Shown: positions 29,662 through 57,773 of the stretch, one piece after another
Position numbering within the stretch: position 1 is the stretch's first letter
Layout of the letters: every line of letters starts with the position of its first letter
NCBI GenBank assembly: GCA_035606695.1
Contig: DATNEW010000020.1
Coordinates: 1 to 64,000 of the forward strand
DNA: 64,000 bases
Source: Gemmatimonadaceae bacterium
GTDB lineage: Bacteria; Gemmatimonadota; Gemmatimonadetes; Gemmatimonadales; Gemmatimonadaceae
Direction of reading: 5' to 3'
Translations under genes and position numbers: made by a program
Notes under the pieces: generated by a model
Database searches by the model: none
What the model saw: only the letters and a program-made list of their open reading frames with translations
Told to the model about the DNA's origin: nothing

Positions 29662-30516
29662 TCAGACGCGCTCGAGCAGCACGTTGCCCGAGAAGCGCTT
29701 GAATTCCTCGCGACGCTGCTTCGGCGCCAACTTTCCGAGCAGCCGATAGAACCAGGCGCCACGCATGACGCGCTTCAGACGGATCCCTTCCTCGAACGTC
29801 GGCCGGTACGCGAGCTCACGCCAGCCGTGCGGTTCGAAGAACTTGGTGCTTTCCGCGGGCGCAAACTTGAACTGCGCATTCCCTTCATCCACGCTCTTGC
29901 CCCACATGTTGCCCATCATCTTGAGCAGCTGCGGGCTCGCGAGATCGTGCAACCACCAGCGGAAGCCTGGTTGCGCGTGTAGATCGTCCGCCAGCGTCGC
30001 CACCTGATCCGGCTCGAGGTAGATCAGCAGTCCCTCGGACACGACAAGCGCACGACGGGACTCCGCGCCGAGTTGCGCGAATAGCGCCTGTCGCTTCGGG
30101 ATATCGGTGAGATCGAGGCGCACAGCGTCGTAGCGACAAACCGTCTTCTCCCGCGCGAGCATCTCCGTCTTGTAGTCGAGAATGCCGGGCATGTCGACGT
30201 CGACCCATCGCAACGTTTCGGGAAGCGGCATGCGCCACGGACGCGCATCGAGTCCCGCGGCGAGATTGAGCACCAGGTCGACCCCGCCGTTCCGAACGCG
30301 ATCGAGAATGATCTCATCGAATACCGCCGTTCGCACGATCATCGGCCACGCGAAGCGGCGGCCTTTCGGCATCGCGTCGACGATCGCGTAGCCCTTCTCG
30401 CCTGCCAAACGTTCGGCGAACGGATCGCGGAAGATCGCGTCGCGCCGCGCCGTCTCCATGGCTCGATACACGGCGACCCAACGCGCCGTGTCGGAGATGT
30501 GCTCGATCTGGCTCAT
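29662..30516 (-). CDS. LCMT/PPM1-like class I SAM-dependent methyltransferase
   Basis: A 284-residue protein of the leucine carboxyl methyltransferase-like branch (TIGR00027 type). The opening ISDTARWVAVYRAMET, then RDPFAERLAGEKG, the SAM-binding LVLNLAAGLDARPWR and WVDVDMPGILDYK are family hallmarks; ALVVSEGLLIYLEPDQV completes the core. In actinobacteria and myxobacteria such enzymes methylate carboxyl or hydroxyl groups of small molecules, and the natural substrate here is unknown. It is divergent from the tricorn protease gene across a 163-bp gap and leads the run into DUF1697 and M20. Confidence 0.87.
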   Translation of the reverse strand: MSQIEHISDTARWVAVYRAMETARRDAIFRDPFAERLAGEKGYAIVDAMPKGRRFAWPMIVRTAVFDEIILDRVRNGGVDLVLNLAAGLDARPWRMPLPETLRWVDVDMPGILDYKTEMLAREKTVCRYDAVRLDLTDIPKRQALFAQLGAESRRALVVSEGLLIYLEPDQVATLADDLHAQPGFRWWLHDLASPQLLKMMGNMWGKSVDEGNAQFKFAPAESTKFFEPHGWRELAYRPTFEEGIRLKRVMRGAWFYRLLGKLAPKQRREEFKRFSGNVLLERV

Positions 30517-30679
30517 GGCACATTTACGCCTGCCATGCCAGTCTCGTCAATGCCGCCGCGCCGATCGGCCGACCGGGGCCCCTAGCCGAACCGCGTCCCA
30601 TGCCCATTTTCATAGCTGGGCATGCCGTTGCCGATTCACGGCGCCCGTACAGCCTCCCCCTCCATACCCGGGTCTTCCG

Positions 30680-33600
30680 ATGTCACGACATCGCACGATC
30701 ACTCTAAGCACTTCACTCGCCGCACTCGTGTTGGCGGTGCCTCTCATCCAACCGCTCCATGCGCAGACGCGCATGCTCCGTTCGCCGACCGTCAGCAAGA
30801 CGCAGATCGCGTTCGCATACGCGAACAACATCTGGACGGTCGATCGCAGTGGCGGGTTGGCTCGTCGCATCACGACGTTCGCGGGCACGACCGAAAACCC
30901 CAAGTTCTCGCCTGACGGCAAGCTGATCGCATTCAGCGCCTCGTACGGCGGCAACGTCGACGTGTACGTCGTCCCCGCCGAAGGCGGCGAGCCGAAGCGC
31001 CTGACGTGGCACCCCGGCGCTGACCAAGTGCAAGGCTGGACCCCGGACGGAAAGAACATCGTCTTCAACTCGGCCCGCGCGACGTGGGCGCCGACAGCGG
31101 CACCGCGCTTCTGGACGGTGCCGGTCGAAGGCGGCGTCGAGACGCCGATGGCGCTGCCGCGCGCGTATCAGGGCAAGATCTCGCCCGACGGACGCCACGT
31201 GGCGTATCGCATGAACAACTCGTGGGATGAAGAGCGACGCAACTATCGCGGCGGTCAGAATCGTCCGATCTGGATCGTCGATCTCAAGACGTACGATCTG
31301 GAGACGACGCCAAGCACCGCGAGCGGCAACGATCTCGTGGTCGCGCAGGCGGGTGCGCCGCGCGGCTCATCGCACTTCGACGCGAAGACCGCCGAGTCGA
31401 AGAACATGGACCCCGTGTGGGTCGGCAACGACGTCGTAGACTTCATCTCCGACCGCGACGGCGTCGCGAATGTGTGGAGCTTCAACGTCTCGTCGAAGAA
31501 GCTCACGCAGCTCACGCACTTCTCGGATTTCGACGTGAAGACGCTCGACGCGGCGTCGGACGGCAGCGCGATCGTGTACGAGCAGGCGGGCGACATCCAT
31601 CTGATGGACCCCAAGTCCGGACACGATCAGAAAGTGAGCATCACCGCCGCCGGCGACTTTCCGTGGATGATGGCGCAGTGGCGCGACGTCACCGGGAACA
31701 TGACCAACATCGCGCTCTCGCCCACGGGCAAGCGCGTCGCCGTCGAAGCGCGCGGCGAGCTGTTCACGATTCCCGCCGACAAGGGCGACGTGCGCGGCAT
31801 TTCGAACTCGAGCGCATCCGCCGAGCACGATCCGGCGTGGTCGCCGGATGGAAAGATGATCTCGTACTTCAGCGACAAGTCGGGCGAGTACGCGCTGTAC
31901 ATCGAGGCGCAGGACGGGCTGACGCCGGCCCGCGAGATCAAGATTCCGACGACGGGTCACTTCTATACGCCCGGTTGGTCGCCTGACGGCAAGCGTATCA
32001 TGTTCACGAGCGCCGATCTCAAGCTGTGGGTCGTCGACGTGGCGTCGGGTCAGGCGAAAGTCGTGGGCAGCGACCCGTGGATGGTGCCGACGCGCACGAT
32101 GAATCCGGTGTGGTCGCCGGACGGCAAATGGATCGCCTACTCGAAGCATCTCAACTCGCTGTATCACGCGATCGAAGTCGTGAACGTCGAGACGGGAGTC
32201 TCGAAGCAGGTGACCGACGGCCTCGCCGACGCGGTCTCGCCGGCCTGGGATGCGAGCGGCAAGTACCTGTGGTTCCTCGCGTCCACCGACATGGGTCTCA
32301 AGTCCCAGTGGCTCGACATGTCGAACTACGATCACACCGAGACCTATGGCCTGTATGCGGCGGTGCTGCGCAAGAACGATCCGTCGCCGTTCCTGCCCGA
32401 GAGCGACGATGAAGGTGTGAACGCGATGGGCGATGGGCGTCGGGTGTCGGGCGGCGGCCGCGGTGCGGCAAACGCCGATACATCTGAGGCGCCTCGCCCA
32501 ACACCCAGCGCCCAGCGCCCTGCGCCCAGCATCACAATCGATTTCGACGGTCTGCCGAATCGCATTCTCGCCGTGCCAGGCGTTCCAGAACGTCAATACT
32601 CGGACTTGAAATCGGGCGCCTCGGGCATGGTGTACTACCTCGAGGCCGCGGCCGGCAGTGGTGGCCGCGGCGGCGCGGGGAGCGGCACGCTGCACCGCTA
32701 TTCGCTGCGCGACAGGCGCGACATTCCGTTCATCACCGGCGTCGCCGGCGCGTATGACGTCAGCCTCGACGGCCACAAGCTCGTGTATCGCGGCAACGCC
32801 GGCGGCGCCGGGGGTGGTCGTGGTCGTGGCGGTGCGGCAGCCGGCGGTGCTGGCGGCGCGGCGCTGTTCCTCGTCGACGCGGATCGTGCGGCGCCGCAAG
32901 CCGGCCAGGGACGTCTCAACGCCGACCTTCGCGCCTACGTCGATCCCAAGGCCGAGTTCAAGCAGATCTTCGACGAAGCGTGGCGCAACCAGCGCGATTA
33001 TCTGTACGTGCCGAACGAGCACGGCGCCGACTGGCCGAAGATCCGTCAGATGTACAGCCAATTCTTGCCGTTCGTGAATCATCGCGCCGATTTGAATTAT
33101 CTCATCGACATGATGGGTGCCGAGGTGTCGATCGGGCACTCGTACGTACGCGGCGGCGACATTCCCGGCACCACGGACATCGCGCCAGGCGGGCTGCTCG
33201 GCGCCGACTTCGCGGTCGAGAACGGCCGTTACAAGATTACTAAAATCTACGACAACGAAGAGTGGAACACGGACCTCCAGGCGCCGCTCGCCGCGCCGGG
33301 CGTGGACGTGCACGTCGGCGACTACATCCTGGCGATCAACGGCCAGGATCTGAAGGCGCCGGATAACATCTACCGGCTGTTGGACGGCACGGCGAACAAG
33401 CAGACGTCGCTGATCGTGAACGCCACTCCGACGATGGACGGCGCGCGGCATGTGACGGTGGTGCCCGTCGCGAACGAGCAGGGTCTGCGCACGCGCGCGT
33501 GGATCGAAGCCAATCGCCGCAAGGTCGATTCGCTCTCGCACGGACAGATCGCGTACGTGTATCTGCCGAACACCGGCCAGCCGGGCTACACGAGCTTCAA

Positions 33601-34174
33601 CCGCTACTACTTCGCGCAACAGGACAAGAAGGGTGCGGTGATCGACGAGCGGTTCAACGGCGGTGGCCAGGCGGCCGACTACATCATCGACGTGCTGCAG
33701 CGCGACTTCGACGGCTACTTCAACAACGTCGCCGGCGATCGCATGCCGTTCACGAGTCCCGCGGCCGGGATCTGGGGACCGAAGGTGATGATCATCAACG
33801 AAATGGCGGGATCGGGCGGCGATCTCATGCCGTACATGTTCCGCTATCGCAAGATCGGTGAGCTCGTCGGCAAGCGGACGTGGGGTGGTCTCGTGCACAC
33901 CGCCGACACACCGCCGTTCGTCGACGGCGGTTCCGCGATCGCACCGCGCGGCGGCTTCTTCGCGCGCGACGGCAAGTGGGCGGTCGAGAACGAAGGCGTC
34001 GCGCCTGACATCGATGTCGAGAACACGCCGAAGGAGGTCATCGCCGGACACGATCCGCAGCTCGAGGCGGCGGTCGCCGAGGCGATGAAGGAGTTGCAGG
34101 CGCATCCGGTCGAGCGGGCGACGAAGGAGCCGCCGTCGCCGACGTGGGGCAAGCGTGTGAAGCCGCCGCTCTAA
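30680..34174 (+). CDS. Tricorn-like S41 protease with beta-propeller and PDZ domains, secreted
   Basis: A 1164-residue protease. The ATG at 30680 gives a signal peptide ending LHAQT; the open frame from 30458 is not coding. N-terminal WD40-like propeller repeats (SPDGK blocks, residues 40-560), a second propeller-like segment, a tricorn C1 domain, a PDZ domain (DYILAINGQDLKAPDN) and a C-terminal S41 domain with the nucleophile in MAGSGGD (Ser about 1045). Tricorn homologs degrade peptides released by other proteases, which suits this peptidase-rich region. The segment at residues about 583-617 is built from heptamer repeats (32425-32530) and is followed by Gly/Arg-rich tracts. A bidirectional terminator follows. 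Confidence 0.92.
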   Translation: MSRHRTITLSTSLAALVLAVPLIQPLHAQTRMLRSPTVSKTQIAFAYANNIWTVDRSGGLARRITTFAGTTENPKFSPDGKLIAFSASYGGNVDVYVVPAEGGEPKRLTWHPGADQVQGWTPDGKNIVFNSARATWAPTAAPRFWTVPVEGGVETPMALPRAYQGKISPDGRHVAYRMNNSWDEERRNYRGGQNRPIWIVDLKTYDLETTPSTASGNDLVVAQAGAPRGSSHFDAKTAESKNMDPVWVGNDVVDFISDRDGVANVWSFNVSSKKLTQLTHFSDFDVKTLDAASDGSAIVYEQAGDIHLMDPKSGHDQKVSITAAGDFPWMMAQWRDVTGNMTNIALSPTGKRVAVEARGELFTIPADKGDVRGISNSSASAEHDPAWSPDGKMISYFSDKSGEYALYIEAQDGLTPAREIKIPTTGHFYTPGWSPDGKRIMFTSADLKLWVVDVASGQAKVVGSDPWMVPTRTMNPVWSPDGKWIAYSKHLNSLYHAIEVVNVETGVSKQVTDGLADAVSPAWDASGKYLWFLASTDMGLKSQWLDMSNYDHTETYGLYAAVLRKNDPSPFLPESDDEGVNAMGDGRRVSGGGRGAANADTSEAPRPTPSAQRPAPSITIDFDGLPNRILAVPGVPERQYSDLKSGASGMVYYLEAAAGSGGRGGAGSGTLHRYSLRDRRDIPFITGVAGAYDVSLDGHKLVYRGNAGGAGGGRGRGGAAAGGAGGAALFLVDADRAAPQAGQGRLNADLRAYVDPKAEFKQIFDEAWRNQRDYLYVPNEHGADWPKIRQMYSQFLPFVNHRADLNYLIDMMGAEVSIGHSYVRGGDIPGTTDIAPGGLLGADFAVENGRYKITKIYDNEEWNTDLQAPLAAPGVDVHVGDYILAINGQDLKAPDNIYRLLDGTANKQTSLIVNATPTMDGARHVTVVPVANEQGLRTRAWIEANRRKVDSLSHGQIAYVYLPNTGQPGYTSFNRYYFAQQDKKGAVIDERFNGGGQAADYIIDVLQRDFDGYFNNVAGDRMPFTSPAAGIWGPKVMIINEMAGSGGDLMPYMFRYRKIGELVGKRTWGGLVHTADTPPFVDGGSAIAPRGGFFARDGKWAVENEGVAPDIDVENTPKEVIAGHDPQLEAAVAEAMKELQAHPVERATKEPPSPTWGKRVKPPL
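32425..32530. repeat. Two opposed heptamer arrays, in frame within the tricorn gene
   Basis: Left array 32425-32452: GATGGGC, GATGGGC, GTCGGGT, GTCGGGC. Right array 32496-32530: five complementary-orientation units (GCCCAAC, ACCCAGC, GCCCAGC, GCCCTGC, GCCCAGC). The two form an imperfect inverted repeat (about 18 of 23 matches) around a 43-base centre. The reading frame stays open and encodes a Gly/Arg- then Pro/Ala-rich linker. Confidence 0.75.
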
Positions 34175-34199: not shown

Positions 34200-34239
34200 A
34201 AAAAGGGAAGCGGTGCGTGACTGCACCGCTTCCCTTTTT
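34200..34239. terminator. Bidirectional intrinsic terminator
   Basis: A perfect 17-bp stem (34200-34216 with 34223-34239) with a 6-base loop. It is flanked by A6 on the left and T5 on the right, so it ends in a T-run on either strand. It lies between the convergent tricorn and LigD-polymerase genes. Confidence 0.92.
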
Positions 34240-34263
34240 CTGTTCCATTTTCTCACAGCGTTC

Positions 34264-35208
34264 TCACAGCAGCTTGTCGAGCTTGAACCGGCCCTTTGCC
34301 GCAAGCAACGGCTTCCACAAATCGCCGAGCTTCGCCGCGCGCGCCGGCACGTTGTCTATTCGAAAATCGTCAATCGCGAAGCCGGCGTCGATCTCGTCCC
34401 ACGTCACGGGCGTCGACACCGGCGCATTCTTTTTCGGCCTTGGCGAATAGATCGACGCCAGCGTGCGGCCCCAGGCGTTCTGGTTGTAATCGACCAACAC
34501 GCGGCCGCGCGGCCGCTTCGCAATAATATACTCGGCGGTCAATAACTTCGGATGCTCCTCGGCGAGATGCTGCGCCAGCGCCTTCGCGAACGTCCACACC
34601 TGCTTCTGCACCGGCCCGCGCACGATCGGCACGTAGATGTGCACGCCGGACGATCCAGTCGTCTTCACGAGCGGCTTCATGCCGAGTGCCTCGAGCGCAT
34701 CGCGCACGACGACGGCCGCTTCGAGCACCTTGGTGAACGTCGCGCCGACGACGGGATCGAGATCGAAGTGCACATAGTCGGGCCGATCCACGTCGTCGCA
34801 GCGCGCGTACCACTGATTCAGGTCGATGCAGCCGAGGTTCACGACCCAGAGCAATGAGGCGAGATCCTGCACCATCGGGAAATCGATCACGCTGCCCGAT
34901 GCATGCTCGATCGCGCACGTCTCGATCCAGTCCGGCCGCGGCGACGGGGCGCGCTTCATGAAAAAGCACTTGCCGCGCGCGCCGTTCGGGTAGCGCTTCA
35001 TCACCATCGCGCGATCGCGGAGATGCGGCAGCAGAAGCGGCGACATCGTCGCGTAGTATTGCAACAGGTGGCGCTTCGTGATCGGCCCTTCAGGCCAGAA
35101 GATCTTGTCGAGATTCGTGAGCTTGACGCGTTTTCCCTCCACGTTCAGCTCGACGTCGTTCTCATCGCGTGGAATCAGAAACGCACCGCGTGCGGCCCGC
35201 GCGCTCAC
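34264..35208 (-). CDS. Stand-alone LigD-type polymerase (primase-polymerase) domain protein
   Basis: A 314-residue protein matching the polymerase domain of bacterial LigD, which fills gaps during non-homologous end joining. Core blocks: KLTNLDKIFWPEGPITK, YYATMSPLLLPHL, YPNGARGKCFFMKR, the catalytic metal motif HFDLDP, the SSGVHIYVP segment and VLVDYNQNAWGRT. The GTG at 35208 was chosen because it overlaps the upstream stop as GTGA and sits 10 bases after GGAG; the frame extends to 35283 without a better start. It has no ligase or phosphoesterase domain, and no Ku gene is in the window. Separate Pol genes of this type exist in several bacteria. Confidence 0.87.
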   Translation of the reverse strand: MSARAARGAFLIPRDENDVELNVEGKRVKLTNLDKIFWPEGPITKRHLLQYYATMSPLLLPHLRDRAMVMKRYPNGARGKCFFMKRAPSPRPDWIETCAIEHASGSVIDFPMVQDLASLLWVVNLGCIDLNQWYARCDDVDRPDYVHFDLDPVVGATFTKVLEAAVVVRDALEALGMKPLVKTTGSSGVHIYVPIVRGPVQKQVWTFAKALAQHLAEEHPKLLTAEYIIAKRPRGRVLVDYNQNAWGRTLASIYSPRPKKNAPVSTPVTWDEIDAGFAIDDFRIDNVPARAAKLGDLWKPLLAAKGRFKLDKLL

Positions 35209-35816
35209 CGAATGCGCTCCAGCTTCGGCGGGCGCTTGCCGTGGCGCACGGCGCCGACAACCGGTTCGTACTCCAGCTCGCATCCTTCCCGCACGCGACG
35301 AAGCAGCAAGCCACCGCGGCTCATGTCGCCGCGGCCAACGAACTCGCTGGGAAACACCAATCGTTTGCCGAACGCCGCGACCAACGTGTCGACATACTTG
35401 CCCGTGGCGATGCTGCCAAGGAGCACGACCTGCGTCCTTGCGCCGATGCTCGAGGCGAGCGACTCCACGTCACGCTCGAGCGGATCGAGATACCGGCGGT
35501 CGCCCGCCGCGATGTCCACACGGGCGAACTTTACAATATCCTCATGACACACGGCCGCGTCAGGCAACATCAATCCTCTGTCCGTCGTGATCACGAACGT
35601 CGCCGGCTGCCGGCGCGAGCGCCGGCCGAACGCCAACCCGTACGCAAGCTTGCCACGAAAATAGAGCCCGCTCAAAAAACTGAACACTTCACCCAACGCG
35701 GCGCCTTCATTCGACCGCAGCCGAGCCGCCAACGCAAACGTCGCCGCGGGATTGAGCAACACCTGCGCGCGCTTGCCGTCACATCGGGCCGGCGAAAGCA
35801 AAAAGACCTGATTCAT
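35205..35816 (-). CDS. Unrecognised protein coupled to the LigD-type polymerase
   Basis: A 203-residue basic protein that I cannot assign to a named family. It is predicted soluble and has no signal peptide. Notable features: the N-terminal VFLLSPARCDGKRA, a central GSIATGK at residues 134-140 that resembles a P-loop but is followed by Tyr rather than Ser/Thr, and a C-terminal GRGDMSRGGLLLRR with RHGKRPPKL. Its stop overlaps the start of the LigD-type polymerase (GTGA), so the two are made together, and a role in DNA repair is a reasonable inference. It is divergent from yaeQ across about 70 bases. Confidence 0.75.
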   Translation of the reverse strand: MNQVFLLSPARCDGKRAQVLLNPAATFALAARLRSNEGAALGEVFSFLSGLYFRGKLAYGLAFGRRSRRQPATFVITTDRGLMLPDAAVCHEDIVKFARVDIAAGDRRYLDPLERDVESLASSIGARTQVVLLGSIATGKYVDTLVAAFGKRLVFPSEFVGRGDMSRGGLLLRRVREGCELEYEPVVGAVRHGKRPPKLERIR

Positions 35817-35887
35817 TGAAAAGCCGTGCTCGACTCGCGAGTATCAGTGATGATTGCGAAACGAATGCCACCGTCGAGCTCGCACCC

Positions 35888-36439
35888 GTGGCGCTGACGG
35901 CGACCATCTACAATTTCGACGTGCAGCTCTCCAACGTCGACCGCGCCGTCTACGAATCGCTGTCCGTCCGCGCCGCTCGGCAGCCGTCGGAGACGGAAGA
36001 GTATCTCGCGACGCGTGTGCTGGCGTACTGCCTCGAGTACGCGGAGGGCATTGCGTTCACCAAGGGACTCGCGGAGCCCGACGTGCCCGCGGTCGAGGTG
36101 CGCGATCTCACCGGGGCGCTGCGCGTCTGGATCGAAGTCGGCACGCCGGACGCCGAGCGGTTGCATAAAGCCAGCAAGGCATCGCCGCGCGTCGTCGTGT
36201 ACACGTTCAAGGATCCGTCGAATCTCGTTCGCCAGCTCGCCGGCGAGCGCATTCACCGCGTCGAAGCACTCGAGGTCTACGCATTCGACCCGGCGTTCAT
36301 CGCCGCGTTCGTCGAGCGGCTGGATCGCCGCACGACCTTCGAGCTGGCGGTGACCGACGGACACCTGTACCTCACCGTCGCCGGCGAGACGCTCGAGACG
36401 GCGCTGAAACCTGTCGAGGTCGCCGAGCGTCGTTCATAG
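35888..36439 (+). CDS. yaeQ: YaeQ family protein
   Basis: A 183-residue protein, the usual length of YaeQ. The GTG at 35888 is chosen because the family begins ALTATIYNFDVQLS; the open frame continues to a TTG at 35816 with no family similarity. Other blocks: RQPSETEEYLATRVLAYCLEYAEGI, GLAEPDVPAVEVRDLTG and the PD-(D/E)XK-like IEVGTPDAERLHKASK. YaeQ adopts a nuclease-like fold, but its role is unsettled. It begins next to the divergent LigD-polymerase pair, which may point to a shared DNA-related context. Confidence 0.87.
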   Translation: MALTATIYNFDVQLSNVDRAVYESLSVRAARQPSETEEYLATRVLAYCLEYAEGIAFTKGLAEPDVPAVEVRDLTGALRVWIEVGTPDAERLHKASKASPRVVVYTFKDPSNLVRQLAGERIHRVEALEVYAFDPAFIAAFVERLDRRTTFELAVTDGHLYLTVAGETLETALKPVEVAERRS

Positions 36440-57660: not shown

Positions 57661-57732
57661 GGTGCGGTAGCCAAGTGGTAAGGCAGCGGTCTGCAAAACC
57701 GCTATTCGCCGGTTCGATTCCGGCCCGCACCT
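57661..57732 (+). tRNA. tRNA-Cys (GCA)
   Basis: A complete cloverleaf: acceptor GGTGCGG with CCGCACC, anticodon stem GCGGT/ACCGC with loop CTGCAAA (anticodon GCA at 57693-57695), and T-arm GCCGG-TTCGATT-CCGGC. CCA is not encoded. A UUCG-type terminator follows at 57774-57803. The 3' side opens into a stretch of degraded accessory DNA, as at many integration sites. Confidence 0.97.
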
Positions 57733-57773
57733 CTGTAGCGTTACTCACTCACACAACATCACTTATGACGTTC

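Follow-up and report, generated by a model that had tools for sequence, protein, structure and literature searches.

A protein family with a predicted YaaA/DUF6884-like fold genetically coupled to stand-alone LigD-type primase-polymerases

At one locus of a Gemmatimonadaceae bacterium, the gene for a LigD-type polymerase begins inside the end of a gene whose 203-residue product, here called Unk, matches no family model in Pfam, NCBIfam, PHROGs or PADLOC. What does such a protein contribute to a repair polymerase? Both genes lie in what we call the window, the whole 64,000-nucleotide stretch of DNA that was analysed (assembly GCA_035606695.1, contig DATNEW010000020.1, positions 1 to 64,000). 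An earlier sequence-only reading had suggested that the two genes form a two-part repair module distinct from full LigD, and had pointed to a P-loop-like motif and a conserved-looking C terminus in Unk.

Two overlapping genes

The unk gene (35205..35816, minus strand) starts with the ATG at 35816 and stops with the TGA at 35205-35207, while the 314-residue polymerase is encoded at 34264..35208 on the same strand (pol; GTG start at 35206-35208, stop at 34264-34266). Both reading frames, the length of Unk and the GTGA start-stop overlap (35205..35208, minus strand) were found in the sequence as the earlier reading had described them. A Shine-Dalgarno-like GGAG within the 3' end of unk (35217..35220, minus strand) lies 8 nt before the pol GTG, where it may serve pol, and together with the overlap it makes translational coupling of the two genes plausible. 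The pairing recurs across phyla and is thus not a chance juxtaposition. Downstream, between pol and a convergent plus-strand gene, a strong hairpin with T/A-rich arms (34200..34240; fold -37.7 kcal/mol, z -8.3) is a probable bidirectional terminator serving both convergent genes, so the operon transcript should end after pol. This hairpin was missed by a simple terminator scan.

The assignment of the polymerase to the LigD type was borne out. It scored above the cut-offs of both PF21686, the LigD_Prim-Pol family (E 1.1e-85; 287.7 bits, cut-off 27.4), and TIGR02778 (243 bits, cut-off 214.7), and its PDB relatives are 5dmu, 6sa0, 2iru and 2fao. The catalytic motifs are intact (HFDLDP, KTTGSSGVH and VDYNQN, corresponding to DxD, an SGxxH-type motif and the third Asp); D149, D151, S186, H190 and D240 are invariant in the alignment A4, and the other motif residues are mostly so.

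A YaeQ-family gene (PF07152, E 7.5e-55; 35816-36439, plus strand) lies head-to-head with unk. This neighbour was found in only two other genomes of the genus and so looks like local synteny; the YaeQ and SLT neighbours in the window were rejected as functional partners, being synteny of close relatives only. Elsewhere in the window, a 912-residue open frame (31367-34105, minus strand) antisense to a 1238-residue ORF at 30458-34174 is probably a codon-bias artefact of GC-rich DNA, and a tRNA-Cys (gca) at 57661-57733 (plus strand) was the sole Rfam or ARAGORN match.

Linkage across phyla and a separate polymerase clade

A scan of one genome per species yielded at least 311 relatives of Unk. The best 80, which were kept, come from Gemmatimonadota, Acidobacteriota, Verrucomicrobiota (mostly Chthoniobacterales), Rokubacteria and others. 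Homologues do travel with the polymerase: in 57 of these 80 closest loci, a gene for a LigD-type Pol and/or a stand-alone ATP-dependent ligase lies within 1.5 kb of unk, and linked loci occur in at least the four named phyla. Gene orders vary among unk-pol-lig, unk-lig, pol-lig-unk, convergent and divergent arrangements, the commonest linked form being unk-pol-ligase in Gemmatimonadota, unk-ligase in Chthoniobacterales, and unk-pol in Acidobacteriota and Rokubacteria. Two genes encode outright Unk-Pol fusions, of 512 residues (G051) and 576 residues (L161). When linkage was mapped onto the Unk tree, it had changed at least nine times, counting changes forced by starred branches.

The sequence-only reading had named homologues occurring mostly without LigD-Pol as one observation that would speak against a module. 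The opposite was found among 395 genomes of the phylum, where LigD-Pol is present in 61 of 62 unk carriers vs 184 of 333 non-carriers (nominal Fisher p 3e-13, a value that ignores kinship), and the one carrier without it is a fragment at a contig end. Of 58 gemmatimonadotal loci, 22 have both pol and ligase, three pol only, three ligase only and 30 neither, and in 45 of 138 loci none of these repair genes is nearby, so that about a third of unk copies are unlinked. The 138 loci combine two sets, with some genomes in both (122 distinct sequences among 139 rows), and locus counts are phylogenetically non-independent and drawn mostly from fragmented metagenome-assembled genomes.

In a tree of polymerases, the linked Pols were found to form their own clade (SH-aLRT 100), apart from both the LigD-fused Pols and the Mycobacterium smegmatis Prim-PolC clade, albeit in a quick tree with long reference branches. 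Of its 37 members, 35 are unk-adjacent, and the other two come from genomes with unk elsewhere. Scores against a profile of the linked-type Pol are bimodal across the phylum, with the type present in 41 genomes, 28 with unk and 13 without. A few unk genes adjoin Prim-PolC-type Pols instead (e.g. in G010), and one adjoins a full LigD (L117), which indicates that the partnership formed more than once. A few Pols (G098 C113 and G350 C105, with 342 and 318 bits) have scores intermediate between this type and the others, and perhaps represent another Pol subtype.

These data retain one half of the proposed two-part module distinct from full LigD and revise the other. Distinctness stands: the linked Pols have their own clade, the ligase is separate, no PE domain was found in ten partner proteins scanned, and Ku is never adjacent. 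"Two-part" is too narrow, since in Gemmatimonadota the linked form seen most often includes a ligase as well. Compared with ligase D, the multidomain NHEJ ligase, the window polymerase belongs to the same domain family (TIGR02778, PF21686), but it is a Pol alone, with no ligase or PE domain, from a separate clade and without an adjacent Ku. Neither this Pol type nor its putative accessory factor has a name in current protein-family libraries.

Conserved residues and predicted fold of Unk

Among 122 distinct relatives, the near-invariant residues of Unk include F5-A10 (FLLSPA), R16, S49, LYFRGK (51-56), Y59, G81-L82, LLGS (132-135), K140-Y141, P156, G163-D164-M165 and R167-G168. The C terminus is indeed conserved, with an RPPKL tail that is mostly retained and R195 and P196 present in at least 90% of sequences. 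No His, Cys or Glu is invariant across the family, whose only near-invariant acid is D164; this pattern argues against a metal-dependent nuclease or phosphoesterase.

The P-loop claim fared less well. The motif in question, GSIATGKY (residues 134-141; 35394..35417, minus strand), takes the form LLGSxAxxKY in family alignments, and GSIATGK does resemble GxxxxGK, as expected if Unk were a P-loop NTPase driving the polymerase. The full Walker A pattern GxxxxGK[ST] is absent, however: relatives carry D, P, A, S or R at the position of the second glycine, G139, and an invariant Tyr (Y141) replaces Ser/Thr, so GSIATGK is not a Walker A motif. Nor was a Walker B motif found, since the one conserved acid, D164, lies in GRGDMSRG at a helix start. 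With the fold matches also lying elsewhere, an NTPase is highly improbable.

Several weak leads were set aside. A Pfam match to Avian_gp85 (E 0.12) and PDB profile matches to isocitrate dehydrogenase (0.007) and a kinase (0.2) involved one member only or were partial, and were judged to be chance. A defence or phage origin was likewise rejected: PADLOC gave no match, PHROGs gave no family below E 0.3, and no viral contig was found; no relatives were found among 72,556 plasmids.

An AlphaFold2 model of Unk, built with 47 family sequences, was of high confidence (pLDDT 92.5, pTM 0.89), as was that of a family member 51% identical to Unk (pLDDT 93.9, pTM 0.90). While Foldseek matched no PDB structure at E 0.001 or better, its search of predicted viral structures placed a phage YaaA as a leading match of both models (E 2.9e-4 and 1.0e-4, probability 1.00), together with phage DUF6884 proteins (probability 0.97 and 1.00 for the two models). 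After re-alignment, Escherichia coli YaaA (5caj) was the top-ranked match of the Unk model (Z 5.9, 160 residues, rmsd 4.4) and came second with the other family model (Z 5.0, 142 residues, rmsd 5.2), although Z values of 5-6 are in a range in which common arrangements can also score. The archaeal AF0587 (2q07), of unknown function, matched the second family model over 118 residues with Z 5.4, on a par with other weak matches.

Profile comparisons separated the two candidate relatives. The alignment of a DUF6884 profile with the Unk family covered the full length of the profile, motif by motif; the hhalign score of 26.1 carries a probability of only 12%, but was reached by none of 200 column-shuffled DUF6884 alignments (maximum 20.4). 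The YaaA profile showed no significant relation to Unk: 12 of 200 shuffles reached its score, and the hhalign alignment was unusable. A Pfam search of 47 Unk-family members gave no match to DUF6884 (PF21818) or YaaA (PF03883), and a viral sequence scan with DUF6884 found nothing. Unk shares with DUF6884, whose members include Bacillus subtilis YfjM, the motif order LY.G..F...Y, [LI][ST]xxxGL.xP, G..Y and G.G, but it is about 50 residues longer and lacks the DUF6884 motifs CxxxK and LSAxxG, having SPA in place of the former and, at the equivalent place of the latter, ITxxxGL. With YaaA (DUF328), a protein with a helix-hairpin-helix DNA-binding motif (35-66), it shares the overall fold and an SPA near the N terminus; YaaA is about 55 residues longer. 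The structure matches of the two models, the DUF6884 shuffle test and, with Z of only 5-6, the 5caj alignment point to the 'cantaloupe' alpha/beta fold shared by the DUF6884/YaaA group. We conclude from the predicted structures that Unk appears to be fold-level kin of this group and a member of neither Pfam family.

What is reported for these relatives bears on what Unk may do. YaaA binds dsDNA (PMC8843374), and its loss raises the mutation rate (PMC4834066, PMC8843374); in E. coli it is under OxyR control and reduces free iron (PMC4834066, PMC8115020). The DUF6884 protein YfjM is reported to have turned up with other proteins that bind abasic and RNA-base lesions, and a nucleotide is predicted to flip into what may be the active site of DUF6884 (PMC11701544). 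A literature search found no linkage of DUF6884 to a repair polymerase, as opposed to the linked Unk, and no paper connecting LigD with YaaA-like proteins. The E. coli observations, the fold match and the finding of no PF03883 YaaA in 59 related genomes would fit an oxidative-stress protein that, like YaaA, limits free iron or protects DNA, its linkage to repair genes reflecting only co-regulation. We consider this unlikely. The fusions to the polymerase, the start-stop overlap and the dedicated Pol clade favour a link that is physical or stepwise, and profile-level homology between Unk and YaaA was not found.

Repair neighbours and a proposed role

Which repair pathway Unk serves is suggested by its rarer neighbours. 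In two members of one genus, unk is preceded at 27 bp and 15 bp by an exonuclease III gene (xth, TIGR00633, 9e-67); xth is near unk in four more, and two Acidobacteria have the order unk-pol-xth. At one locus (L119) unk overlaps at its 3' end with a gene for a UDG-superfamily uracil-DNA glycosylase (PF03167, 8.5e-39), and at another (L266) unk is followed by a PE/LigD_N gene, encoding a LigD-type 3'-phosphoesterase. The UDG and PE neighbours are single cases and the xth cases represent two lineages; all three suggest a role in excision repair and not in end joining.

The absence of Ku and of an ATP-dependent ligase, noted in the sequence-only reading, is true within the window and does not extend to the cell, as Ku and ligases are present at other loci of this 5.9 Mb genome. 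Ku followed by a ligase-polymerase LigD is encoded at C1:128712-131534. C39 carries a ligase-polymerase pair, C50 one more ligase and C32 a stand-alone PE domain. The Ku-LigD locus (G000 C1:128712-132678) comprises Ku, a ligase-Pol fusion without PE in that ORF, and then a second stand-alone ligase.

These data also bear on whether Unk is an NHEJ accessory, taking the place of Ku or of the PE domain when a split LigD joins double-strand breaks. Its partners are a LigD-type Pol and ligase, the ten scanned partner proteins lack PE, and one unk gene adjoins a full LigD and one the PE gene, as such a role would lead one to expect. Against this, Ku is adjacent in none of 138 loci, the window genome already has Ku, LigD and PE elsewhere, and the linked Pols fall outside the LigD-fused clade. 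Unk itself, with no invariant His and a single conserved acid, is unlike a metal-dependent phosphoesterase, and the xth and UDG neighbours fit excision repair. An end-joining role is therefore improbable.

A closer parallel is found in mycobacteria, where Prim-PolC and LigC act in base excision repair, filling short gaps and sealing them, and in some species are transcribed together with the glycosylase FPG (PMC5663958). As in that system, a stand-alone LigD-type Prim-Pol and a stand-alone ATP-dependent ligase exist beside Ku-LigD, and the FPG co-transcription is comparable to the linkage of unk with UDG or xth. LigC/Prim-PolC has an operonic ligase, as do 22 of the 58 loci of the phylum, whereas the window operon has none. 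The systems differ in that the linked Pols form a separate clade and the unk module adds a YaaA/DUF6884-like protein.

It is likely, in our assessment, that Unk is a DNA-lesion- or gap-recognition protein of a base-excision/single-strand-break repair module with a dedicated Prim-Pol and, usually, a LigC-like ligase, and thus probably a hitherto unnoticed part of a base or single-strand repair pathway. Unk would bind DNA and act first, its substrate being a damaged or abasic site, or a nick or short gap after ExoIII incision, and might flip the damaged nucleotide into a conserved pocket formed by SPA, LYFRGK..Y, GL, GSxAxxKY and GRGDMSRG. The Prim-Pol, which here shares its mRNA, would then insert one or a few nucleotides, probably ribonucleotides, into the gap, and an ATP-dependent ligase, supplied in the window genome from another locus, would seal it.

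Unk might also have catalysis of its own. In a sharper version of lesion recognition, compatible with it, Unk would itself initiate repair as a DNA glycosylase or AP lyase, through an invariant Lys (K56 or K140) and D164. The near-invariant K56, K140, Y59, Y141, D164 and R167 suggest an active site over a pure scaffold, the predicted nucleotide flipping by DUF6884 would agree with one, and Unk sits with downstream enzymes of base excision repair. These conserved residues may only bind phosphate, however; at the UDG locus Unk is paired with a separate glycosylase, and a literature search found no biochemical activity assigned either to YaaA, known for peroxide resistance, or to DUF6884, the abasic/RNA-base lesion binder. 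An enzymatic Unk is accordingly a doubtful prospect.

Broader, and possible in only a tentative sense, is the proposal that the family is a new class of repair initiator: a YaaA/DUF6884-like glycosylase, lyase or XRCC1-like lesion-flipping hub that recruits its own Prim-Pol and ligase. If so, many soil bacteria would possess an excision-repair route complete in itself, in which ribonucleotides serve to patch the DNA. The lesion-recognition role would extend excision repair of the mycobacterial LigC/Prim-PolC kind to Acidobacteriota, Verrucomicrobiota, Gemmatimonadota and Rokubacteria. As a relative by fold whose gene is coupled or fused with those of a gap-filling polymerase, a ligase, an AP endonuclease and a uracil glycosylase, Unk provides the fold itself with a pathway and testable substrates.

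A further arrangement was seen in five acidobacterial loci (L127, L136, L137, L144 and L150), in which ruvC-ruvA-ruvB lies upstream of unk and pol, joining recombination to gap-repair genes. The order in L150 is yebC-ruvC-ruvA-ruvB-fabH-small gene-unk-pol-queA.
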